Shown here: positions 4,312 through 35,733 of the stretch, one piece after another | How positions within the stretch are numbered: the stretch's first letter is position 1 | Layout of the letters: each line of letters opens with the position of its first letter | Assembly (NCBI RefSeq): GCF_947241125.1 | Contig: NZ_OX365700.1 | Span: forward strand, 4,622,461-4,686,460 | Direction: 5' to 3' | From: Nitrospira tepida | Lineage (GTDB): Bacteria > Nitrospirota > Nitrospiria > Nitrospirales > Nitrospiraceae | DNA: 64,000 bases | Made by a program: the position numbers and the translations under genes | Notes under the pieces: model-generated | What the model was told of the DNA's origin: nothing | Seen by the model: only the letters and a program-made list of their open reading frames with translations | Database searches by the model: none

Positions 4312-4854
4312 TTATTTGGCCTTCCGGATCGCCTCTCGGAGCGCATCCAATTGTTCTCGTTTGGCCAAGTCCGTTTCATCGAGCCAGGCCTGCCGGACGT
4401 GGTTGATCATCCGCTTGTGGCCGATGTGCGGCGGCAGCACGGGCTCGACGATACGCCAGCGATTCCGCACGGCCTTGACCCGCACCCGGACCACCTCCGG
4501 CCCCGGCTCCGGGATGAAAATTGCTTTCTCATAGTACACCAAGCCGAGCACCTTGAACTCCACCGGGATCACCACCTCCAGATTGTTCACGATCTCCCAT
4601 TGGCTCGTTTCGTTGATGACCTTGAAGTCCTCGATGACGACGGCATGGCCCCAGACCGGCTCGTCCTTCCAGGCCACATAGGGAGCCACCGTTTCGTACG
4701 AGAGGGATTCCAACCGGGCGCCTTTCGAATCGAGCGTGAAATAGCGCTTCAGGATCTCCGTTGGATCATGCGTGAGGCCGCCCGACTGCGCTTGTACTTC
4801 CGCCACCATCAACAAGGACATCGATAGAGCCAGCAGGAGCTGCCACGCCCGCAG
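4312..4854 (-). CDS. Secreted protein of unknown function, probable CTG start
   Basis: About 180 aa. An AGGAGG (4864-4869) lies nine bases upstream of an in-frame CTG at 4854; initiation there gives a textbook signal peptide, RAWQLLLALSMSLLMV then AEVQA. The next ATG would remove most of the signal core, and upstream in-frame sequence overlaps the pyruvate kinase end. The mature part has no motif I recognise. It contains an alternating beta pattern (EFKVLGLVYYEKAIFI) and ends in a charged helix. It is probably a periplasmic protein in the same transcription unit as gph and the M16 genes. The start codon is uncertain. Confidence 0.7.
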   Translation of the reverse strand: MRAWQLLLALSMSLLMVAEVQAQSGGLTHDPTEILKRYFTLDSKGARLESLSYETVAPYVAWKDEPVWGHAVVIEDFKVINETSQWEIVNNLEVVIPVEFKVLGLVYYEKAIFIPEPGPEVVRVRVKAVRNRWRIVEPVLPPHIGHKRMINHVRQAWLDETDLAKREQLDALREAIRKAK

Positions 4855-5072
4855 GATTCGTTTCCTCCTGTCTTCCAAATGTCGAGCCTGCGACAGGACA
4901 TGAGGCGACCTTGCCGCCGAACCTGTCCACTCGCCGGGGAGGAAAGCGGGAACCGGGTACCCGCCTGGCGGGTGGGGAGTCCGCGAGGGAATTCCCGAAG
5001 GCTTCCCCCTGGCGGATACGAGCATCTGGTCCCTCGGCGGCGCTGGAGCCTCGATCCGGCCACAGGCGCGTC

Positions 5073-6524
5073 TCATCCCACCTCGTGCAGCTTCATCAAA
5101 TTCGTTCCCCCCGGCCATCCGATCCTCGTCCCGGACAGGATCACGATGCGCTGGCCAGCCTTCGCCAACCCCTCGGCCTTCAGGCGGCGCTCGGCCTCGG
5201 TGATGCGTTCGTCGGTTTGCGCGATCTGGGCCATCGTGTGGGGCAGTACCCCCCAGTAGAGCGCCATCCGCTGCCGGACCGACTCAAACGGCGTGAACGC
5301 GATGATCGGAGCGGCCGGGCGCTGCTTCGACATGAGCCGCGCCGTCATGCCCTTCTCGCTGAAGACCACGATCGCGCCGGCGCCGATCGCCGCGGCGGCC
5401 GTGGAGGCCGAGGTGGAAATGGCTTCGGGAAAGGACATGCGGCCCTGGTCCGGCTGGGCGCGTCGCACGAACTTCGGCCCGGTCTCCACTTCCGCCGCCT
5501 GTACGATACGATCCATCACCTGCACGGCCTCGACCGGATAGTGCCCGATCGCCGTTTCGGCCGAGAGCATCACCGCGTCCGTCCCGTCGAAGACCGCATT
5601 CGCCACGTCCGAGGCCTCGGCCCTGGTCGGCCTCGGGCTCCGCGTCATCGACTCCAACATCTGCGTGGCCGTGATGACGAGCCGGCGGCGACGGTTGGCC
5701 TGGCTGATGATGCGCTTTTGCAGGACCGGGACGACTTCGGGCCCCATCTCGACCCCCAGGTCGCCTCGGGCGATCATGACCCCGTCCGCCTCCTCCAGGA
5801 TCGCATCGAGCTTTTCCACGGCTTCGGCCCGTTCGATCTTGGCGATGATCGGCTGATCCCCGCCGCAGTCCTTCAGCAGCTTGCGGGCCTCCACGATATC
5901 GGCCGGGCCCCGCACGAACGACAGCGCGAGGTAATCTACGCCTTGCCGCACCCCGAATCGAATGTGCTCCCGATCCCGGTCGGTGAGCGTCGGCGCGCTG
6001 ATGGCGGTGCCCGGAAGATTCATTCCTTTGTTGGAGCGCACCAGCCCCGGCGTGACCACCGTGCAGAGCACATCGGACGCTTCAATCGTCACCACGCGCA
6101 GCTCGATCAGCCCGTCGTCGATGAGAATCCGCGCGCCCGGCTTCACATCCCGGCTCAGGTGGGGATAGGTCACCGGCATCTCCGTCTCGGAGACGGTTCG
6201 GCCCGCGTGATAGCCATGTTGCCCGCCGGAGCGCAGGGCCGAGCCCACTAACCGTACCCGCTGGCCAGGCTGAAGGTGAATCCCCTCCGGAGCCAGCAGG
6301 CCCAGCCTGATGCGCGGCCCTTGCAGATCTTGAAGAATGGCGATCGCCCGTGCCCGCCGGTCGGCCGCCTGCCGGATCAGATCGATGGTCTTGGCATGTT
6401 CGTCGAGCGTGCCGTGCGAGAAGTTCAGCCGCGCCACGTCCATTCCGCAGTCGAGCAACTGTTGCAGGCTGTCGAGCGAGCGGCTCGCCGGACCGATCGT
6501 GCAGACGATTTTGGCTTTTCGCAT
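5073..6524 (-). CDS. pyk: Pyruvate kinase
   Basis: A 483-aa protein covering the whole family. It transfers phosphate from phosphoenolpyruvate to ADP, the last step of glycolysis. The N-terminus KAKIVCTIGPAS and MDVARLNFSHG are diagnostic. The B domain follows, then the active-site segment IIAKIERAEAV and the metal-binding IARGDLGVEMG, then ATQMLESM and GTDAVMLSAETAIGHYPVEA, and a C-terminal allosteric domain ending SGTRIGWPGGTN. All catalytic motifs are intact. The ATG at 6524 matches the family start. It leads the minus-strand block that continues to the M16 proteases, with a 200-bp gap after its stop. Confidence 0.97.
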   Translation of the reverse strand: MRKAKIVCTIGPASRSLDSLQQLLDCGMDVARLNFSHGTLDEHAKTIDLIRQAADRRARAIAILQDLQGPRIRLGLLAPEGIHLQPGQRVRLVGSALRSGGQHGYHAGRTVSETEMPVTYPHLSRDVKPGARILIDDGLIELRVVTIEASDVLCTVVTPGLVRSNKGMNLPGTAISAPTLTDRDREHIRFGVRQGVDYLALSFVRGPADIVEARKLLKDCGGDQPIIAKIERAEAVEKLDAILEEADGVMIARGDLGVEMGPEVVPVLQKRIISQANRRRRLVITATQMLESMTRSPRPTRAEASDVANAVFDGTDAVMLSAETAIGHYPVEAVQVMDRIVQAAEVETGPKFVRRAQPDQGRMSFPEAISTSASTAAAAIGAGAIVVFSEKGMTARLMSKQRPAAPIIAFTPFESVRQRMALYWGVLPHTMAQIAQTDERITEAERRLKAEGLAKAGQRIVILSGTRIGWPGGTNLMKLHEVG

Positions 6525-8922: not shown

Positions 8923-9168
8923 CTACGGCTGAGACCAGCGGTCTTCGCGTCCTGTCCTGGATTCGGTGTCCTGTCTGGTCAGCCCTTCACCGACTCCAAC
9001 AGGGACCAGCGGACAAGCAAGCTCGGTCTCGTGGTCACAGTTCTTCAGGTAGGTCCTGACGTGCGTCCAACAGATGCCATGAGTGGTTCGTGGGTCGTCG
9101 AACGGACTGGTTTCCCCAATTAGTCCCATCCGCCCTTCCCGCTCACACCAGGCACAAACAAGCAACAT
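8923..9168 (-). CDS. Small CAWC-motif protein (putative metal-binding), copy 2
   Basis: 81 aa. The signature is LVCAWCEREG, GLIGETSP, then DPRTTHGICWTHV, aligning throughout with the gene at 8510-8710 but with a longer, charged C-terminus. The two probably arose by duplication, with 212 bp between them. The cysteine and histidine positions are retained, suggesting selection. No known function. Confidence 0.65.
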   Translation of the reverse strand: MLLVCAWCEREGRMGLIGETSPFDDPRTTHGICWTHVRTYLKNCDHETELACPLVPVGVGEGLTRQDTESRTGREDRWSQP

Positions 9169-9327
9169 GGTCGGTGCTCCCGGTTTGCCTTGCTTACGAC
9201 TCTCAGCAAGTCCCGGGCCGGACGGATGCCACAGCTATTTTCGTGCGCTTTTCGCGGACTTTGGTTTCCAGGAGGAGTTGGGGAATGTGAATGGGCCTGA
9301 TAAGCGGGTGAAGGAATGTATGGTTCC

Positions 9328-9357
9328 GCCGCGCGAAATCGCACGATTTCGCGCGGC
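9328..9357. repeat. Perfect 14-bp inverted repeat (hairpin)
   Basis: GCCGCGCGAAATCG and its exact reverse complement are separated by CA. The structure is very stable, with a short C run on the plus strand but no T tract. It lies 15 bp before the MITE and may be part of an older repeat or a protein-binding palindrome. Confidence 0.7.
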
Positions 9358-9372
9358 CCCCCTGGTAACTTC

Positions 9373-9591
9373 CCTAGCCCACATTATTCATGAACGCTTC
9401 TACTGCAACCGCCGATACGCCGCTGCGACAAGCCCGCATGCGCCTCTGGGGCATGCGGGCGGGCAGGCTCGCCCCTCACGGCCTCAACGTACTGTTTCAA
9501 GTACGCCTCCGCCGCAAGGGGCTCCGCGTGCCCGTCTCGCTTGGCGTCTCAGTGGTTTCGTGACGAACCGTCATGAATAATGTGGGCTAGG
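9373..9591. mobile_element. 219-bp MITE-like element with perfect 21-bp terminal inverted repeats
   Basis: The left end CCTAGCCCACATTATTCATG(A) at 9373-9393 is an exact reverse complement of 9571-9591. The interior has two further hairpins (GCCCGCATGC...GCATGCGGGC and CGTAC...GTACG) and no credible gene. The CCTA start is reminiscent of IS1380-family ends, but this is a guess. No clear target duplication is visible. Confidence 0.8.
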
Positions 9592-9702
9592 CCATGGTGT
9601 CCAGCATGATTCGGTCAATTTAGAGCCTCACCCAGCGCCCCGGACACTTCGGTTTCGTCCCAGAGGTAGAGGCGGCCGCTTTGTCCACTACCAGTACGGT
9701 CG

Positions 9703-10684
9703 TCACGGAATCTGAAAATCTGCCACGACCGGCGCATGGTCCGACTCGGGAAACTGGGTGTCGTCTCGGAAGGCCCCGGACTCGTCCGGCAGGATCTCGT
9801 TGTGAACCTCCGTGCCGCGATACCAAGGGAGAAGTGCCCGCGAGACCAGGATATGGTCCAACATGTGCCCTCGCCCCAAGTGGAGCAGTGAATAGCGGGC
9901 CAGTTCGGGAATGCTCTGTTCGCAGGGAATCATGACGCTGGGGCAGAGGTCGGGATTGCCGGTCTCCTCAATCCGCCCTCGAATCGCCATCATCGGCACA
10001 TCGTCCAAATCCGCATTGAAGTCGCCGCAGCAGGCGATCCAGGGTTCGGGTGTCCCAGCAAAGAGGCCGTCGATCACCCGGCGGATCTCAATGGGCCTGC
10101 CCCACCCGCTTCATCGAGGAAAGGAAATAGCCTTCAGCCCATCCGGACGCGCTTCGCCAGGTATATTGGTCCTTTTGCTGTCCTGGAATATCGCTCGGCA
10201 GCTTGGATTTGAGGTGCACGTTGATGACATGCAGGACCAGGCCTCCGCCCTGGTCGAGTTGCACAACCAGCAGGGGCCGCTCCCATTCCACGCGTTTGGC
10301 CTCCAGCTCCAGCGGCTGCGCCGTGACCTTGCGGTAGAGCGGCATGCCCTCGGTGGAACGGATCTGCTGCGTCTGCAGAATCGGAAACCGACTGAGGACC
10401 ACGAGGTTGCGCGCATCATAGGGAACGCCCGTGACAGTCTTGGTGTGGGTCAGGTGGAAGAACTCATAGGGAGTGCCGGCGACCAGCGTCCCGAGAGCCG
10501 CCAAGGTTCTGGGGCCGGTGGCCGGTTCCTGCCCGTTCACTTCCTGCAAGCACAACACGTCGGCCCGCAGCCGCACCAGCGCCTGCCGCAGGTACGGAAG
10601 GCGAACGGCAAGCGCCGGTTTCTCCGTGGGCTTGTCATCGAGATTTTCGAGGTTGAAGGTCGCGAGGCGCAGTGAAGTCGGCAT
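9703..10684 (-). pseudogene. Endonuclease/exonuclease/phosphatase-family protein with a +1 frameshift
   Basis: Two frames together make one EEP-family enzyme of about 325 aa. The first (10684-10088) has LRLATFNLENLDD, DVLCLQEVNG, RNLVVLSRFPI and NVHLKSKLPSD. The second (from about 10097 to 9703) has CCGDFNADLDD, GHMLDHILVSR and a final SDHAPVVADF. These are the metal-binding and catalytic motifs of the fold. At about 10093-10098 one extra C in GGCCC breaks the frame; removing it restores RVGQAIEIRRVIDG. Either the gene is recently inactivated or the base is an assembly error. Substrate (nucleic acid or phosphoester) unknown. Confidence 0.85.
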
Positions 10685-10811: not shown

Positions 10812-12095
10812 ATGAAAACCACTAAATCACAAACCCTCTTCGAGGCGGCGCAACAGCTCATTCCCGGCGGAGTGAACAGCCCCGTGCGCGCCTTCCGTTC
10901 CGTCGGCGGGCAGCCACGGTTTATCGTCCGCGCGAAGGGCGCCTATCTCTACGATGCCGACGGCAACCGCTACATCGACTACGTGCTCTCCTGGGGGCCG
11001 ATGATTCTCGGCCATGCGCCCAGGCCCGTCGTAGTCGCCCTCACGCGCGCCGCCAAGCAGGGCACGAGCTATGGAGCTCCGACCGAATTGGAAGTCCGGC
11101 TGGCCCGGATGATTCATGATGCGCTTCCGTCGATGGAAAAGGTCCGGCTGGTCAGCTCGGGCACGGAGGCGGTGATGAGCGCGATTCGCGTGGCCCGCGC
11201 CTTCACCAAACGAGACGGCGTGCTGAAGTTCGAAGGCTGCTACCACGGCCACAGCGACTATCTGCTGGCCAAAGCCGGCTCCGGACTCGCGACGCTCGGC
11301 ATCCCGGAGTGCCCCGGCGTGCCGTCCGACTTCACCAAACACACGCTCACGGTTCCCTATAACGATCTCCGCACGGCGGCGCAGGTGATCCGGCAACAGG
11401 CCAAGCAACTGGCCTGCGTGATCGTCGAACCGATCGCCGGCAACATGGGGGTCGTGCCGCCGGCGCCGGATTTTCTTCCCGCGCTGCGCGAGCTGACACG
11501 CGCCCACGACATCCTGTTGATCTTCGACGAGGTCATTTCGGGATTTCGGGTGCAGTATGGCGGGGCGCAAACGCTCTATGGCATCAAGCCGGACCTGACG
11601 ATTCTCGGCAAAATCATAGGAGGAGGGTTGCCGGTGGGCGCCTACGGAGGGCGGGCCGACATCATGAACTTGATCGCGCCGGCCGGGCCGGTCTATCAGG
11701 CCGGCACCTTGTCGGGCAATCCACTGGCCGTGACGGCGGGCATCGCAACGTTGACGGAACTCAAGACTCGCGGGGTCTATAGCAAGCTGGAGAAGCAGGC
11801 CGCCGCCCTGGCGGCCCAGCTCGGCGAGGCAGCCAAAAAGGCCGGCGTGGAACTCTATCAAACGCGGGTCGGGTCGATGATGGGCGCGTTTTTTACCAGG
11901 GGACCGGTGGTGGACTGGGCAACAGCCAAACAGTCGGATACGGCACGCTATGCCAAGTTCTTTCACGCCATGCTGGAGCGGGGCGTCTATCTGGCCCCAT
12001 CCCAGTTCGAAGCGGCCTTCATTTCAACCGCCCATACCCCGGCGGACATCACGAAGACCGTCAAAGCCGCTCAATCGGCTTTGAGGTCTCTCTAG
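10812..12095 (+). CDS. hemL: Glutamate-1-semialdehyde 2,1-aminomutase
   Basis: A 427-aa PLP enzyme that converts glutamate-1-semialdehyde to 5-aminolevulinate in C5 haem synthesis. It has the N-terminal IPGGVNSPVRAFRSVGG, the VSSGTEAVMSAIRVARA phosphate-binding region, YHGHSD, IFDEVISGFRV, and the Schiff-base lysine in LTILGKIIGGGLPVG (about residue 267), followed by GTLSGNPLAVTAG. I chose ATG 10812; an in-frame ATG at 10791 is possible, and neither has a strong ribosome-binding site. It is divergent from the EEP hydrolase across a 127-bp spacer. Confidence 0.96.
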   Translation: MKTTKSQTLFEAAQQLIPGGVNSPVRAFRSVGGQPRFIVRAKGAYLYDADGNRYIDYVLSWGPMILGHAPRPVVVALTRAAKQGTSYGAPTELEVRLARMIHDALPSMEKVRLVSSGTEAVMSAIRVARAFTKRDGVLKFEGCYHGHSDYLLAKAGSGLATLGIPECPGVPSDFTKHTLTVPYNDLRTAAQVIRQQAKQLACVIVEPIAGNMGVVPPAPDFLPALRELTRAHDILLIFDEVISGFRVQYGGAQTLYGIKPDLTILGKIIGGGLPVGAYGGRADIMNLIAPAGPVYQAGTLSGNPLAVTAGIATLTELKTRGVYSKLEKQAAALAAQLGEAAKKAGVELYQTRVGSMMGAFFTRGPVVDWATAKQSDTARYAKFFHAMLERGVYLAPSQFEAAFISTAHTPADITKTVKAAQSALRSL

Positions 12096-28934: not shown

Positions 28935-29516
28935 ATGAAGACTCGCATCATCGAACGGTTCGACGACAGCGCCGAGGTCAAGCGCCGTTTCGTGCGCGAA
29001 CACGCCGATCGCATCGCGGAACTCGCCGGGGTCATGGCGCGAGCTTTCCGAGAAGGCAATAAAGTCTTGCTCTTCGGCAACGGCGGCAGCGCCACGGACG
29101 CCTCGCATCTCGCGGCGGAATTCGTGGGACGGTACCACAAGGATCGCCGCCCGCTGCCCGCGCTCGCCCTGGGAGCGGACATGGCGGCGCTGACCTGTAT
29201 CGCCAATGACTACACCTACGACGATATATTTGCCCGGCAAGTCCGCGCTCACGGCCACAAGGGCGACATCGCCATCGCCATCAGCACCAGCGGCAACTCC
29301 CCGAATGTCCTGAAGGGCGCGGAGGCAGCCCGCGAATGCGGCCTCGTCACCGTCGGCTGGACCGGCCATCAAGGCGGCAAGTTGGCCTCGCTCGTGGAGT
29401 ACCGCTTCGTCGTGCCTTCCACTGTGACCGCCCGCATCCAGGAGTGCCATATCACGCTCGGGCATGTCCTCTGCGAGTTGATCGAGGAAGACCTCTTTGC
29501 CACGACGCCCCGGTAA
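28935..29516 (+). CDS. gmhA: Sedoheptulose-7-phosphate isomerase (phosphoheptose isomerase)
   Basis: 193 aa SIS-domain protein. VLLFGNGGSATDASHLAAEF and VGRYHKDRRPLPALAL are GmhA signatures; AISTSGNSPNVLKGAEAA binds the sugar phosphate, and the zinc-site residues are in QECHITLGH. It makes D-glycero-D-manno-heptose 7-phosphate for the LPS core. DiaA is a close relative, but the YHKDRRPLPA segment favours GmhA. The matching heptose adenylyltransferase is at 35239-35733. Confidence 0.92.
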   Translation: MKTRIIERFDDSAEVKRRFVREHADRIAELAGVMARAFREGNKVLLFGNGGSATDASHLAAEFVGRYHKDRRPLPALALGADMAALTCIANDYTYDDIFARQVRAHGHKGDIAIAISTSGNSPNVLKGAEAARECGLVTVGWTGHQGGKLASLVEYRFVVPSTVTARIQECHITLGHVLCELIEEDLFATTPR

Positions 29517-30489
29517 GCTTCCCGCATCCGTCCGCCCGCGCCCGCCCGTCACGCCGATCGATGTGAGCCGGCTCACGACTTATCCGCTTCAGCGGCGACA
29601 CAGCAAGGTGCGCATCGCCGACTTTGCCAAGCCGTGGAAAACTGGAGGCCGATTCTATCAATTCTTGGAGTGGCTGCCAGACATCCTTGCTGTCAAGACG
29701 CTCCGGTCCGTCGCACAGGCGATCGTCCGGGCTCATCGCCGGCGACGGCCGGTGATTCTCGGAATGGGCGCCCACCCGATCAAGGTGGGGTTGAGCCCGT
29801 TGGTCATCGATCTCATGAATCGCGGCATCATCACAGCCATGGCTCTCAACGGCGCCGGAATCATCCATGATTTTGAGATCGCGTTATTGGGTCAGACCTC
29901 CGAGGATGTGGAAGCGGAGATCGATTCTGGCCGCTTCGGCATGGCCGAGGAAACGGGACGTCTGCTCAATGAGGCGATTGCGCTGGGAGCCGGTAACGGC
30001 CTTGGGTTGGGCGAGGCCGTGGGGGCTTACATCGATTCAAGAAAGCGTGTGTTCCCCCACCGCTCGCTGAGCGTGCTGGCGACCGCGACCCGCCTCGGTA
30101 TCCCCGTCACGGTTCACGTGGCGATCGGAACCGACATCATCCACATGCACCCCTCTGCGGACGGCGCAGCGATCGGCGCCTGCTCGCTGGTGGATTTCAG
30201 AAAGCTGGCGGCGGTCGTGGCGGGAATGGAAGGCGGAGTCTATCTGAATCTCGGCTCGGCGGTGATCTTGCCGGAGGTCTTTCTCAAGGCGGTCACGCTA
30301 GGCCGGAATCTCGGCCACTCCCTCACGAACATCACGACCGTCAACATGGATTTCATCCCGCACTACCGCCCACTGACCAACGTCGTAAAACGGCCGACTC
30401 AAAAAGGCGGGACGGGCTACTCGCTCATCGGCCACCATGAGATCATGTTCCCGCTCCTCATGGCTTCGGTCCTCGAACAGCTCCGGTAG
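29497..30489 (+). CDS. Conserved protein, deoxyhypusine-synthase-like Rossmann fold
   Basis: 330 aa. A TTG at 29497 overlaps gmhA by 20 bp; a GTG at 29563 is an alternative. RRRRPVILGMGAHPIKVGLS then PLVIDLMNRGIITAMALNGA and GIIHDFEIAL, and later THVAIGTDIIHMHP-like (VHVAIGTDIIHMHPSADGA) and SLVDFRKLAAVVAGMEGGVY resemble the NAD-binding fold of deoxyhypusine synthase. The lysine of the true enzyme is not identified. The family is often beside gmhA and may work in sugar or lipid-A metabolism; function is not established. Confidence 0.65.
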   Translation: MPRRPGKLPASVRPRPPVTPIDVSRLTTYPLQRRHSKVRIADFAKPWKTGGRFYQFLEWLPDILAVKTLRSVAQAIVRAHRRRRPVILGMGAHPIKVGLSPLVIDLMNRGIITAMALNGAGIIHDFEIALLGQTSEDVEAEIDSGRFGMAEETGRLLNEAIALGAGNGLGLGEAVGAYIDSRKRVFPHRSLSVLATATRLGIPVTVHVAIGTDIIHMHPSADGAAIGACSLVDFRKLAAVVAGMEGGVYLNLGSAVILPEVFLKAVTLGRNLGHSLTNITTVNMDFIPHYRPLTNVVKRPTQKGGTGYSLIGHHEIMFPLLMASVLEQLR

Positions 30490-30560: not shown

Positions 30561-32240
30561 CTATGGACGCTGGGTCACGAAGACATCGGCGACGCCGTTG
30601 AGGTCGTTCGCGACGAGGTTCGTGGCACGTGAGGTGTACGACACGAACCGGGCGTCGGCGCTGATCGCGGCAAAGAAACTCGCTCCGCCGACAGCTTCCG
30701 TTCCGTCTCCATCCACCGAGACGCGACGGACCGGGTTGACCGCGCCCGGTTGGGTATCCACCACAAAAATATCGGTCTGGCCGTTGGTATCTTGTCCGGC
30801 GCCGATCAGATTGCTTGCATCGGATTCATAGACCACGAATCTTCCATCGCGGCTCAACATCGGGACGCGACTTTCGCCGTTGCCTTCGACACCATTTTGA
30901 TCCACAGAGACTCGCCGTACCGTGGGAGACGGGGACTGCCAGTCCACCACAAAGACATCCGCAACGCCATTGGCATCATTGGCCACGAGATTGCTTGCCA
31001 GGGACCAAAAGGCGACGATCCGCCCGTCGCGGCTGATGGAAGGGGTAAAGCTGTGATCATTGCCCTGTACCCCGCCCGCTCCGACTGACACGCGCGTCGT
31101 CTGTCCGGTGACTCGGTCATGCACGAAAATGTCTGAGAACCCGTTGGTATCCTGTCCAGATCCGATCAGCGTGGTGGCCTTCGACTCGAAGACGACGTAG
31201 CGGCCGTCCGCGCTGATGCCCGGGTTGCCGCTGAACCCATCGGATTCGACACCGGCCGGCCCCACCGAAACCCGTTCCGTCACTTTGGTCGTTCGATCGT
31301 GGACGAAGATATCTGCTTGGCCGTTGGTATCCCCCGAGATCAAATTTGAAAAGGTTGAGCCGAACACCACAAGATTACCGTCGTAGCTTAGATGCGGATC
31401 GTAGCTCGTGCAGTCCAAGCCGCCGGCCGGTGGAACGTCACACATCCCCTCCCCTCCATTGAGCGTGACCACCGAAACTCTCGTGGTCTCCTTGGTATTG
31501 CGGTCCCACACGAACACATCACCCGCCCCATTTTGATCGCCGTTGACAAGATTCGTCGCAAAGGAATGGTAGGCGATGATATGGCCGTCTTCGCTGATCG
31601 CGCCGAGGGGACTGTCTCCGTCCGCTGGAATTCCCGCTACTCCGGAAGACGCGAGGCTGACCTCTCCCGTTGCTCGATCATGAACAAATATGTCTCGCTT
31701 CCCGTTTATATCGCCGGACACCAGGTTTCCCGCGGACGAATTGAACACGACAAACCGCCCGTCGCCGCTGAGTTCCGCCTCTCCCCCATAGGCCGGAGGT
31801 GCGCCGCTTTCCGCATTGCCTTGTTGTCCAGCACTATCAACAGAGATCAAACTTGTTCGAGATCGAACCGTGAAGGTGAAGCTCTTTACGTCGCTGCCGC
31901 CCGGCCCGACGGCTGTAATTGTCACGGGAAACTGTCCCGGTAGGGTCGGCGTCCCGGAGATCGTGCCTGCACCCGACAGAGAAACCCCAGCCGGTAACGA
32001 TCCGCCCGATAGGGACCAGGTAATGTCAGGGCTTCCGGTCGCCTCTAAGGCCGAATCATAAGGCAACATGACATCTGCGAGCGGCAGTCTCGTCGTGGTG
32101 ATGGCCGGCGGAACCACAACCGTCTTTCCTTCCCCGCCACCTCCTCCGGCGCCTCCGCCACTACAGCCGGCGAGGACGCCGGCAACTGCTAGAAACAGAA
32201 ACCCGTGGATCATTCCCGAACGCCGGCCGCCCTGTTCCAT
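30561..32240 (-). CDS. TolB-like beta-propeller lipoprotein with Ig-like domain, copy 1
   Basis: 559 aa from ATG 32240 (GGAGG upstream). The lipobox is AGVLAGCSGG, then a Gly-rich linker. An Ig/cadherin-type domain (about 50-135, with SLPAGVSLSGAGTISGTP) precedes six or seven PD40 repeats of the form DGRFVVFNSSAGNLV...DIFVHDRATG. It is probably an extracellular-facing lipoprotein. The next gene upstream encodes a paralogue with the same architecture; an independent terminator separates them. No enzymatic residues are evident; binding or scaffold role is inferred. Confidence 0.8.
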   Translation of the reverse strand: MEQGGRRSGMIHGFLFLAVAGVLAGCSGGGAGGGGGEGKTVVVPPAITTTRLPLADVMLPYDSALEATGSPDITWSLSGGSLPAGVSLSGAGTISGTPTLPGQFPVTITAVGPGGSDVKSFTFTVRSRTSLISVDSAGQQGNAESGAPPAYGGEAELSGDGRFVVFNSSAGNLVSGDINGKRDIFVHDRATGEVSLASSGVAGIPADGDSPLGAISEDGHIIAYHSFATNLVNGDQNGAGDVFVWDRNTKETTRVSVVTLNGGEGMCDVPPAGGLDCTSYDPHLSYDGNLVVFGSTFSNLISGDTNGQADIFVHDRTTKVTERVSVGPAGVESDGFSGNPGISADGRYVVFESKATTLIGSGQDTNGFSDIFVHDRVTGQTTRVSVGAGGVQGNDHSFTPSISRDGRIVAFWSLASNLVANDANGVADVFVVDWQSPSPTVRRVSVDQNGVEGNGESRVPMLSRDGRFVVYESDASNLIGAGQDTNGQTDIFVVDTQPGAVNPVRRVSVDGDGTEAVGGASFFAAISADARFVSYTSRATNLVANDLNGVADVFVTQRP

Positions 32241-32465
32241 ATGTTCCCTCCGTACAGCAGGTAGGACGTGTAGATTGCCGTGGCTCTCGCGATGCATGAG
32301 CCTACAATCCTATGAGACCGGTCAATCGTCTATACCATGGAGGTGTCAGAACTCCCTTCCGGCGAGGAGGGAAGAAGGAAACAGGAACTGGCCAGCTTGT
32401 CGCGACCACAAGAATCGCTCAGGATTTAGACCTCTCGATGGGGCGAAGTCGGGTTGGAAAGAAGA

Positions 32466-32528: not shown

Positions 32529-34160
32529 TTACGGTCGCTGGCTTACGAACGCGTCAAACGCGTTCCCGTTGCTATCAGGCGTCACCAAATCTGACGCGGC
32601 AGAGTAGTAGGCGATGAAGCGCCCGTCTCCACTGATTGCCGGGAATCGACTTTCGCCATTTCCCATTTGCCCGGCGCTGTTCACTGAAGCAGGTTTTATC
32701 GACGTCCCGATCTGAAGCACATAGATCTGCTGCTGGCCATTCGTACTGATCGGAGGAACGATTGGAAGATCGGTCGCCAGAGAATGAAGAGCTAGGAAAT
32801 TCCCATCCCGACTGAGCGATGGGGAATCGCTTTCAGCATTGCCTCCGATACGACGGAAGTTCGTGGGAGCAGACGTCCCGTTCCAGTCCACAATAAACAC
32901 GTCTCGTATTCCCGAATCGCCAGTCCCGAGATTCGTCGCAACAGACGAGAATGCAATCCGTGATCCGTTGTTTGAGATCGTGGGATTCTGGCTGGCCCCA
33001 TCCGCCGCCACGGCGGGATCGGGGGTCACAGAAATTTTGGTAATCTGTTTTGAGGCAACGTTATAGGCGAATACGTCATCGATGAGAGTGGTGAGATCGG
33101 GATCGTTTGCAACAAGGTTATTGGCGACTGAGGAAAACACGACAAACCGGCCGTCAGCGCTGATTTGAGGGCTGCCGCTTCCCCCGTTCGCCGCCATCCC
33201 GCCAACTCCCTTCGTGGCTAACTCTAGGGTGTTGGCACTTTTGTTCAGGACATAGATATCTGGTGTCGATGTGTTCAAATCTTCTGGCAACAGAGTCGCA
33301 AAGGTTCCAAAAGCGATAAGGTTGCCATCTGCGCTCATCGAGGGATCAAAGCTATTACAATTCTCCCCAACGCCTAAAGGGCATCCTCCCTCAGTACCTT
33401 GTGGGGTCTGGGAAATGCGAACAGTCGTCCCGGTCTGCCGATCATGCAAAAATATATCCCTGGCTTGATTGGAATCTCCATCGATTAGGTTGCTGGCGAA
33501 GGAATCAAAGGCCACGAAACGACCGTCATCGCTCACCACAGCGACGTGGCTGTCATTATTCCCTTGCGTGCCATCCGATTTCTTCGAGATCAACTGAGTT
33601 TCACCGATTTCGCGGTCTCTCAGGTAAACATGTCGCCTTCCGTTCGTCCCACCGAGGTTGGTAGCGGCCGAATCAAATACGACAAAACGTCCTGTATTGC
33701 TGATACCGGGATCCAAACTCCTTTGAAAAGGAGCCACGAAACCGTTTCCGCTGTCGCCACCAGTTGCTTGCACCTCATCGCTGTTGACCGAAGCAAGATG
33801 GGTCTTGTCCAGTACCGTCATGGACAAGTTTTCGGTGTCGGTTCCGCCAGGTCCTTTGACTTCTATGGCCAGGTTGAACTGCCCTGGCTGGGTCGCAGGT
33901 CCCGTTAGCTTACCCGTTGCCGGATCGACCGTAATTCCCTGAGGCAATCCCGTAACCGTCCAGGTGAAAGGGCCAGACCCGGTCGCGGTCAAATCGGCGC
34001 TGTACGGTTGATTCACGTCTGCGAGCGGCAACGGATTCGAGTTGATGTTGGGAGGGGCAAGAGGACTATCTCCTCCGCCGCCGCACGCGGTCAAGAATCC
34101 GAGGACACTCATCACAACCATCGCGTGCGCGATTCGTTGCAGGGTTCGTTGACTACTCAT
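32529..34160 (-). CDS. TolB-like beta-propeller lipoprotein with Ig-like domain, copy 2
   Basis: 543 aa from ATG 34160, with AGGAGG upstream. The lipobox is GFLTACGGGG. The Ig-like domain (about 35-120) carries GLPQGITVDPATGKLTGPAT. Propeller repeats of the form GRFVVFDSAATNLG...VYLRDREIG follow to the end, SDLVTPDSNGNAFDAFVSQRP split over the last blade. It has lower similarity to copy 1 in the blades than in the architecture, so the duplication is old. A long upstream region of 260 bp suggests its own promoter. Confidence 0.8.
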   Translation of the reverse strand: MSSQRTLQRIAHAMVVMSVLGFLTACGGGGDSPLAPPNINSNPLPLADVNQPYSADLTATGSGPFTWTVTGLPQGITVDPATGKLTGPATQPGQFNLAIEVKGPGGTDTENLSMTVLDKTHLASVNSDEVQATGGDSGNGFVAPFQRSLDPGISNTGRFVVFDSAATNLGGTNGRRHVYLRDREIGETQLISKKSDGTQGNNDSHVAVVSDDGRFVAFDSFASNLIDGDSNQARDIFLHDRQTGTTVRISQTPQGTEGGCPLGVGENCNSFDPSMSADGNLIAFGTFATLLPEDLNTSTPDIYVLNKSANTLELATKGVGGMAANGGSGSPQISADGRFVVFSSVANNLVANDPDLTTLIDDVFAYNVASKQITKISVTPDPAVAADGASQNPTISNNGSRIAFSSVATNLGTGDSGIRDVFIVDWNGTSAPTNFRRIGGNAESDSPSLSRDGNFLALHSLATDLPIVPPISTNGQQQIYVLQIGTSIKPASVNSAGQMGNGESRFPAISGDGRFIAYYSAASDLVTPDSNGNAFDAFVSQRP

Positions 34161-34423
34161 CTGTTTCTCTCCTCCTCTAGCGAAACCGTGGTGCTGGCGT
34201 CGACACTTCTCTCGAACGAAATAGAAATGCGGTCGTCGAGGCCGGAACGTGGATCCTATTGCCCTCGGTAGGCGCTTACTGTACTGATGTCCGAAGAGAC
34301 CTATCAACCCCCTGGAGATGCTATTTTCCCCTCGAAAGGGTCAAAAAAATGATGATTGCGAGACTCGCATGGGTGTAGATTCGCAGGGGCGACCATACAC
34401 TCCTACCTTCGGGGATTGCGTAA

Positions 34424-35251
34424 ATGTCGATCCTACATCATCTAGAGACGCCACGGGGCCTTCTTAGATCCACTGACGTCCTTGCCTCCTGGGAGCGCTT
34501 CAATCGGCAATATTTTGCCGGGCGGCTGCCACCGATCCCCATCCAGTGGAGCGGACGGCTGACTTCCTCCTTAGGGCTCTTCATGAGTCGTGTAGGACCC
34601 CGAACCAACGTGTCCGAATCCCCACTGCCCAATAGAGACCGCCGCTGCATCCGATTATCCCTCCCTTTAATCGGACAGATGCCGGCGGATCCCTTGATCC
34701 GCGGACAGCTCATCCTAAATACCTTGGCCCACGAGATGATCCATCAATGGCAATACGACATCCTCAAGCGCCGCCCCGACCATGGGCCTGATTTTCGAAA
34801 GAAAATGCGGGAGATCAACCGGCAGGGGTCCCTCAGCATCACGATTTACCATTTCCTCTCCAACGAAGTGCGCGCGCTGGCGCGACATGCCTGGCGGTGT
34901 CAATGGTGTGGAGAAGTCTATCGTCGCCTGAGACGAACCATTCGCCCCCGCCTCCACATCTGCGCCATCTGTCATGGTCCATTGAAAGAAGCACCGGAAC
35001 AGCTCGACCGGCATGCAAGCTCGGCCGAGTCCCAGACAGGGAATCATCGCGATCTTCCGCTGCAGCAGGACCCTGGCGTCGGCAATCGAGAGAGCCCTGC
35101 TGGCCAACTGTGGCTTCCCTTCGAAATCCCTGCCGACCCCACATCGACTCCCCATATCGCGTCAATGCGGGACCCGAGATCCCCCATCCATCCCTCCGGA
35201 CAGGCAGCCACTAGGATTCCAGGCCGGCTCTCGGTAAGATGCGATCCATGA
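34424..35251 (+). CDS. SprT-family zinc metalloprotease-like protein
   Basis: 275 aa. LASWERFNRQYFAGRLPPIP opens the SprT domain, the zinc motif is NTLAHEMIHQWQ, and HGPDFRKKMREINRQ provides the third region. A zinc ribbon follows (WRCQWCGEVYRR ... HICAICHGPLK), as in SprT/Spartan proteins. The last 80 residues are low complexity. Bacterial SprT roles are poorly known; the eukaryotic relative digests DNA-protein crosslinks. Its stop overlaps the start of the next gene by 13 bp. Confidence 0.88.
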   Translation: MSILHHLETPRGLLRSTDVLASWERFNRQYFAGRLPPIPIQWSGRLTSSLGLFMSRVGPRTNVSESPLPNRDRRCIRLSLPLIGQMPADPLIRGQLILNTLAHEMIHQWQYDILKRRPDHGPDFRKKMREINRQGSLSITIYHFLSNEVRALARHAWRCQWCGEVYRRLRRTIRPRLHICAICHGPLKEAPEQLDRHASSAESQTGNHRDLPLQQDPGVGNRESPAGQLWLPFEIPADPTSTPHIASMRDPRSPIHPSGQAATRIPGRLSVRCDP

Positions 35252-35733
35252 ATGGGAAAATCCTCTCACAAGCGGCGCTGGCGCTGGAACTCGACCTCAA
35301 GCGGCAGGCCGGCGCGCGCATTGTGTTTACGAATGGATGCTTCGATCTTCTCCATGTAGGCCACACGCGGTATCTCCAGGCTGCCCGCAAGTTGGGGGAT
35401 GTGCTGGTTGTCGGGGTGAACACGGACCGCTCCGTCCGAGGCCTCAAGAAGAGCGCAGAGCGTCCGATTGTGCCAGACTCCCAGCGGGCGGAGGTGCTCG
35501 CCGCCCTGGCCTGCGTCGATTATGTCGTGTTGTTTGACGAGCCGGATCCCTACGTGTTGATTCGGGCGGTGCAGCCCGACGTGCTGGTGAAGGGAGGCGA
35601 CTGGAGGCCGGACCAGATCGTCGGGCGGGATATAGTGGAAGGCCGCGGCGGGCGCGTCCTCGCCATTCCTCTTATCCCGGGGGTTTCGACGACCGCCCTC
35701 GTTCAGAAGATTCTCTCACATCCATCTTATTGA
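35239..35733 (+). CDS. rfaE2: D-glycero-beta-D-manno-heptose 1-phosphate adenylyltransferase
   Basis: 164 aa cytidylyltransferase-fold enzyme. IVFTNGCFDLLHVGHTRYLQ holds the HxGH nucleotide-binding motif; VVGVNTDRSVRGLKK and PDVLVKGGDWRPDQIVG complete the pattern. It makes ADP-heptose for LPS, next after GmhA/GmhB. In many bacteria it is fused to the kinase (HldE); here it is the stand-alone domain. The IS630 element inserted in its stop codon: the original TAA has become TAT-TGA, adding one Tyr. Confidence 0.92.
   Translation: MRSMNGKILSQAALALELDLKRQAGARIVFTNGCFDLLHVGHTRYLQAARKLGDVLVVGVNTDRSVRGLKKSAERPIVPDSQRAEVLAALACVDYVVLFDEPDPYVLIRAVQPDVLVKGGDWRPDQIVGRDIVEGRGGRVLAIPLIPGVSTTALVQKILSHPSY

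Follow-up and report, generated by a model that had tools for sequence, protein, structure and literature searches.

A GSU2086-family protein encoded beside gmhA in Nitrospira tepida is a candidate nickel-pincer nucleotide enzyme standing in for HldD in heptose synthesis

Within a 64,000-nucleotide stretch of the Nitrospira tepida genome (hereafter the window), we analyzed an open reading frame that starts inside the end of gmhA and lies upstream of hldC in the same gene block. The features at this locus are:

28935-29516, plus strand: gmhA, sedoheptulose-7-phosphate isomerase with a SIS domain (PF13580, E 2.9e-28)
29497-30489, plus strand: GSU2086-family ORF, 330 aa, TTG start
29866-29877, plus strand: HDxE motif (residues 124-127 of the ORF), common to the GSU2086 family and TIGR00300
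30115-30150, plus strand: HxxxGxDxxHxH segment (residues 207-218), with the named residues invariant in 30/30 rows of the family alignment A1
35239-35733, plus strand: hldC, heptose-1-phosphate adenylyltransferase (TIGR02199, 190.9 bits, above the cut-off of 181.5), downstream in the same block

The gmhA product also matched the phosphoheptose isomerase model NF010546 (E 1.2e-60) and TIGR00441 (193.5 bits), in both cases below the respective cut-offs of 276 and 209.45. As the original prediction from the sequence had stated, the 3' end of gmhA shares 20 bp with the start of the following ORF, whose TTG start is preceded by GAGGAAG at a distance of 6 nt. This ORF is a real gene and not a chance reading frame, because it matched the NCBIfam model GSU2086_dom (NF052581) over its full length (446.8 bits, E 4.4e-134, cut-off 250) and has near full-length relatives, each of the best 80 of 544 having a match that begins no later than residue 41 and ends no earlier than residue 317. 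The NCBIfam name is just 'GSU2086 family protein', a label free of function. A Pfam search with the window protein returned no match at E 0.001, and so neither Lar_N (PF09861) nor PF04455, and a PDB sequence search likewise gave none at 0.001. The HldD model TIGR02197 and the cyclodeaminase model TIGR00300 were both absent from an NCBIfam scan up to E 1, in which the only matches of the deoxyhypusine synthase (DHS) or cyclodeaminase type were weak ones to DHS (E 0.046 and 0.074), and the DHS model PRK02301 scored 13 bits against a cut-off of 364.

The DHS-like fold that had been proposed for this protein was recovered upon structure prediction. For an AlphaFold2 model built from the window protein together with 41 relatives (mean pLDDT 79.1, pTM 0.78), the top Foldseek match was Pyrococcus DHS (E 6.6e-8), and VIA-align superposed the model on DHS 7cmc_D with Z 20.9 (rmsd 3.7, 259 residues aligned), on the cyclodeaminase domain of ArgZ with Z 20.8 (rmsd 3.0, 214 aligned), and on AgrE with Z 20.6. 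Judged from the predicted model, the DHS and ArgZ/AgrE matches are thus a tie. While the fold is the same as that of DHS (PF01916, TIGR00321), the identity is only ~14%, the family cut-offs are missed, and the gene context is another one. In sequence, the family stands between DHS and cyclodeaminase, with family models that are mixed as to the nearer relative. Across 58 genomes, the Pfam DS profile yielded 15 weak matches (E 1.7e-4 to 9.5e-4), 14 of them inside listed GSU2086 places, and one relative (G005) reached 27.7 against the PF01916 cut-off of 27 solely with neighbors in frame. One plasmid relative (L115) matched a DHS-type model at E 1.3e-6 and TIGR00300 at E 3.9e-5, a second relative (L116) matched TIGR00300 at E 2.2e-5 and DHS at E 1.3e-3, and TIGR00300 scored 22.7 and 23.5 bits on two relatives against a cut-off of 410.8. 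Using hhalign, we aligned 112 columns of A1 with the cyclodeaminase (probability 87, E 3.9e-6), and comparison with a DHS alignment, narrow in that it covered one order, gave no real match (E 0.077), a negative of little weight. The weak second match to the GSU2086 profile in the window genome was itself a TIGR00300 protein.

The motif that links the family to the ArgZ/AgrE/TIGR00300 ornithine cyclodeaminases, in addition to the fold, is HDxE. All 30 rows of A1 retain its H, D and E, all 14 rows of the cyclodeaminase alignment A4 retain the corresponding H250, D251 and E253, and hhalign superposes the two motifs, setting NGAGIIHDFE on GNALAAHDME. The polar cluster of the HxxxGxDxxHxH segment offers further candidate active-site residues. 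TIGR00300 cyclodeaminases differ in carrying a LOR/SDH N-terminal domain (PF04455), which the heptose-linked GSU2086 protein lacks. NCBIfam describes TIGR00300 as 'ornithine cyclodeaminase, nickel-pincer nucleotide-dependent'; our literature search retrieved no paper behind this claim for the nickel-pincer nucleotide (NPN), so that we know the label from the NCBIfam name alone. The curators may suspect an NPN link for GSU2086 as well, since the accession NF052581 stands close to those of LarC2 (NF052512) and of a variant of the NPN cyclodeaminase (NF052526).

The linkage to heptose genes, for which the original prediction had suggested a neighborhood survey, is conserved. Among the best 80 of 544 relatives (76 of them titled Nitrospira or Nitrospirota relatives, 4 otherwise), gmhA lay at most 300 bp upstream in 76/80 and hldC at most 5 kb downstream in 50/80, a count uncorrected for contig ends. 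Among 20 chosen stretches outside the family of the window genome, gmhA was adjacent in 14, hldC lay within 500 bp in 9, and neither was near in 3. A plasmid collection search added two relatives, 37-41% identical, from a Chloroflexota and a Solidesulfovibrio plasmid, which adjoin SIS and PfkB or HldE-type genes. The GSU2086 protein almost certainly belongs to the heptose pathway.

To relate the family to the NPN cofactor, we surveyed 62 Nitrospirota genomes (G000 and G235-G295), of which 60 were scored after two with weak or partial GSU2086 matches (G256 and G275) had been set aside. Listings put matching genomes first, and a genome absent from the GSU2086 or LarC listing was scored as absent; weak GSU2086-profile matches (E 1e-5 to 1e-3) were also scored as absent, since such matches in Nitrospirota can be cyclodeaminase, as the places checked showed. 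Co-occurrence with NPN genes was strong: LarC, the NPN nickel insertase, was found in 38/39 genomes with GSU2086 vs 7/21 without (Fisher p 9e-8, ancestry ignored), and LarE exceeded its cut-off in 35/39 vs 7/21. We rejected LarA as the cause of LarC presence, given that it exceeded its cut-off in 3/62 genomes, all without GSU2086 (0/39 vs 3/21 of those scored); one genome with GSU2086 (G284) had a sub-cut-off Lar_N match of 20.6 bits. Cyclodeaminase as sole cause was rejected too, as it was not found in 30/39 genomes with GSU2086; one member of the cyclodeaminase set (n=11), G260, has a TIGR00300 match that falls short of the cut-off. LarE was present in 27 of the 30 genomes with GSU2086 that lacked both cyclodeaminase and LarA. 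Around LarC in four genomes with GSU2086 and no cyclodeaminase (G281, G261, G272 and G289), the first residues of the ORFs revealed no obvious other NPN user. One genome (G276) has GSU2086 and LarE with no LarC; in four others (G236, G247, G287 and G295) LarC is present and the searches turned up no NPN user. Among 14 well-known control genomes, GSU2086 matches occurred in three archaea, all below cut-off, and LarC in six, of which two had Lar_N, two TIGR00300 and two neither. The last two, Synechococcus elongatus and Corynebacterium glutamicum, indicate that LarC has users missed by these profile searches.

The window genome itself has the NPN biosynthesis genes that an NPN-dependent enzyme would call for, LarB, LarC and LarE being present, and no Lar_N match. 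Its larB lies ~0.9 kb and its cyclodeaminase gene ~5 kb before larC (TIGR00300 cyclodeaminase, larB and larC on L192 at 4402-5649, 9134-9970 and 10822-12045), with larE elsewhere; this proximity, together with the missing Lar_N match, fits the NPN label of the cyclodeaminase.

HldD, the ADP-L-glycero-D-manno-heptose 6-epimerase, an NADP-binding SDR that uses NADP for its epimerization, showed the opposite distribution. It exceeded its cut-off in 10/62 genomes, all without GSU2086, that is, in 0/39 scored genomes with GSU2086 vs 10/21 without (p 5e-6, ancestry ignored). Among 43 further genomes picked by GSU2086 state, with weak profile matches again scored as absent, HldD was found in 9/24 without and 1/19 with GSU2086, the exception (G001) carrying both. 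We then asked about hldC in 80 genomes chosen by GSU2086/HldD state, counting matches with E up to 1e-20 (55/57 above cut-off): hldC matched in 19/19 HldD-only genomes, 33/35 with GSU2086, and 5/26 with neither. Among the 57 genomes with an hldC match, 32 had GSU2086 only, 19 HldD only, one both and five neither, so that exactly one of the two was present in 51/57 (Fisher p 1e-9, ancestry ignored), a near-complete exclusion among heptose-making Nitrospirota. The five with a heptose adenylyltransferase match and neither gene (G220, G247, G249, G255 and G263) represent either assembly gaps or a third solution. Swaps recur: genus g6 contains HldD-only (G104, G110, G126 and G128) and GSU2086-only genomes (G072, G080, G101 and G161), and family f11 has six HldD-only genomes and one GSU2086-only. 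Within family f2, where the HldD search was confined to genus g23, that genus carries HldD and lacks LarC, while GSU2086 and, for the most part, LarC occur in the remaining genera.

Genetic data from Geobacter sulfurreducens bear on the same genes. Table 1 of a Tn-seq study (PMC5585712) lists at least 39 genes with log2 values of -2 or lower on electrodes, among them hldE (GSU2085, -3.1), GSU2086 (-3.2), gmhA (GSU2087, -3.7), GSU0140 ('phosphoribosylaminoimidazole carboxylase-like', -2.2), the hypothetical GSU0141 (-2.3), GSU0536 ('adenosine nucleotide alpha-hydrolase superfamily', -2.6) and the nickel transporter nikMN (-2.0). Within that table, GSU2086, gmhA and hldE have a phenotype in common with the nickel transporter and the genes described like LarB and LarE, although the value for GSU2086 could result from polar effects inside the operon. 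By its description, GSU0140 fits LarB, in line with the LarB-PurE relation that we observed. Likewise by its description, GSU0536 fits LarE. The available part of the Tn-seq paper draws no link between the heptose and nickel genes (PMC5585712), and our literature search retrieved no earlier statement tying GSU2086 or a DHS-like protein to heptose, or the nickel-pincer nucleotide to heptose or LPS.

We suggest that GSU2086-family enzymes are NPN-dependent hidden-redox epimerases that replace HldD, a reading to which we assign a probability of roughly 0.6 with its three parts, heptose pathway, HldD replacement and NPN, taken together; on their own, replacement of HldD and use of NPN each seem quite likely. 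The LarC and HldD genome profiles are what point to this cofactor and to this replacement rather than to DHS chemistry. In this reading, LarB, LarE and LarC would supply the nickel-pincer nucleotide that the GSU2086 protein binds. The enzyme would then abstract the C6 hydride of a heptose intermediate, either D-glycero-D-manno-heptose 7-phosphate or the corresponding ADP-sugar, and deliver it back to the opposite face, so that the L-glycero form would arise with no net redox change, just as HldD achieves by means of NADP. GSU2086 would share reaction and pathway with HldD (TIGR02197), whose genomic place it takes and whose sequence model does not match the window protein; that the reaction is an HldD-type C6 epimerization of ADP-heptose we infer from this replacement pattern. 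With the LarA superfamily (PF09861) it would share NPN hidden-redox chemistry, and not the Lar_N domain. A shade less firmly, we extend the reading to the family as a set of NPN enzymes outside LarA, acting on heptose phosphate or ADP-heptose, that replace HldD and through which outer-membrane core synthesis would depend on nickel in Nitrospirota, in Geobacter and probably in other phyla. The original prediction had hinted at a distinct NAD-dependent reaction in envelope sugar or polyamine metabolism. A separate reaction of the redox type on envelope sugars is probably right, with NAD a less likely cofactor, and the polyamine branch falls with the DHS chemistry discussed below.

GSU2086 could instead replace HldD, or act otherwise in the heptose pathway, with a tightly bound NAD(P), the LarC link being incidental. 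PDB titles lend this some weight, as they name NAD as a ligand of DHS and describe the sister-fold protein AgrE in complex with ornithine and NAD+ (6lrg). We nevertheless consider it unlikely, because among genomes with neither LarA nor cyclodeaminase LarC was present in 29/30 with GSU2086 vs 4/18 without (p 8e-8, ancestry ignored), and because of the phenotype common to the nickel transporter and the LarB- and LarE-described genes in the Geobacter table. Equally doubtful is that GSU2086 is an NPN-dependent sugar enzyme for a different heptose, an epimer at another carbon or another precursor, with the L-glycero form unused in the organisms that have it. Mutual exclusion with HldD shows alternatives and not the same product, and on the Chloroflexota plasmid, where GSU2086 occurs with HAD, PfkB and SIS genes, none of the five cluster genes scanned matched an adenylyltransferase model. 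Against this, G110, which has HldD and no GSU2086, retains a gmhA-hldC block equal to that of G001 and the window except for GSU2086, an arrangement most simply explained by one and the same product. Finally, it is highly improbable that GSU2086 is an aminobutyl transferase of the DHS or homospermidine synthase type acting on polyamines or envelope sugars, a view consistent with the fold and with weak matches to DHS-type models but opposed by the missing invariant lysine, by a separate DHS-family gene in the window genome, and by the HldD and LarC patterns, which it leaves unexplained. In the suggested active-site comparison with DHS, columns 283-288 of A1, located by eye relative to the FPLL segment and not by structural alignment, contain no invariant lysine, column 286 being K15 R12 V2 T1 over 30 rows beside an invariant R; the motif held in common was instead the HDxE of the cyclodeaminase. 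The catalytic lysine of human DHS is K329, ahead of the C-terminal FPLL segment. On the lysine position, the gene context and the separate DHS-family gene, we rejected DHS and homospermidine chemistry.

According to PMC11796402, ~15% of the genomes surveyed there lack larA while encoding larB, larE and larC, from which NPN-binding proteins other than LarA were deduced. The GSU2086 family is a concrete candidate for one such protein. If the NPN-dependent epimerase reading is true, NPN chemistry would extend to sugar phosphates or nucleotide sugars, LPS biosynthesis would gain a nickel enzyme, and the use of the cofactor in many bacteria without lactate racemase would be easier to explain.

Several further observations concern related proteins and neighboring genes. 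The DHS-family gene of the window genome (L113 958-2196, minus strand) encodes a 413-aa protein with an SWGK motif that reaches none of the NCBIfam cut-offs for models of the DHS and homospermidine type (237 bits at best vs 434); PF01916 exceeded its cut-off in 24/58 class genomes, all from the order of the window genome. On the Chloroflexota plasmid (L115 7167-12228), HAD, GSU2086, HldA-like PfkB and GmhA-like SIS genes stand beside a sugar ABC transporter and deoC and may form a heptose cassette in a phylum that is generally without LPS; a 508-aa protein adjoining the cluster had no match at 1e-5 in either Pfam or NCBIfam, and the GSU2086 relative had none in phage records. Distant GSU2086 relatives that carry an additional N-terminal region (28-33% identity; NF052581 E 5e-29 for L137) are encoded on eight viral contigs of 40-205 kb (L137-L144). 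The HDxE motif was absent from all five examined (L137 5548-6762, L139 5548-6762, L141 398-1615, L142 5545-6744 and L144 5536-6744), which may be a non-catalytic ligand-binding version whose N-terminal region is possibly regulator-like. Between GSU2086 and sprT-hldC in the window, the minus strand encodes two similar proteins (30561-32297 and 32529-34307) with repeated SADGRFVVF-type motifs, which are probably secreted and perhaps propellers.
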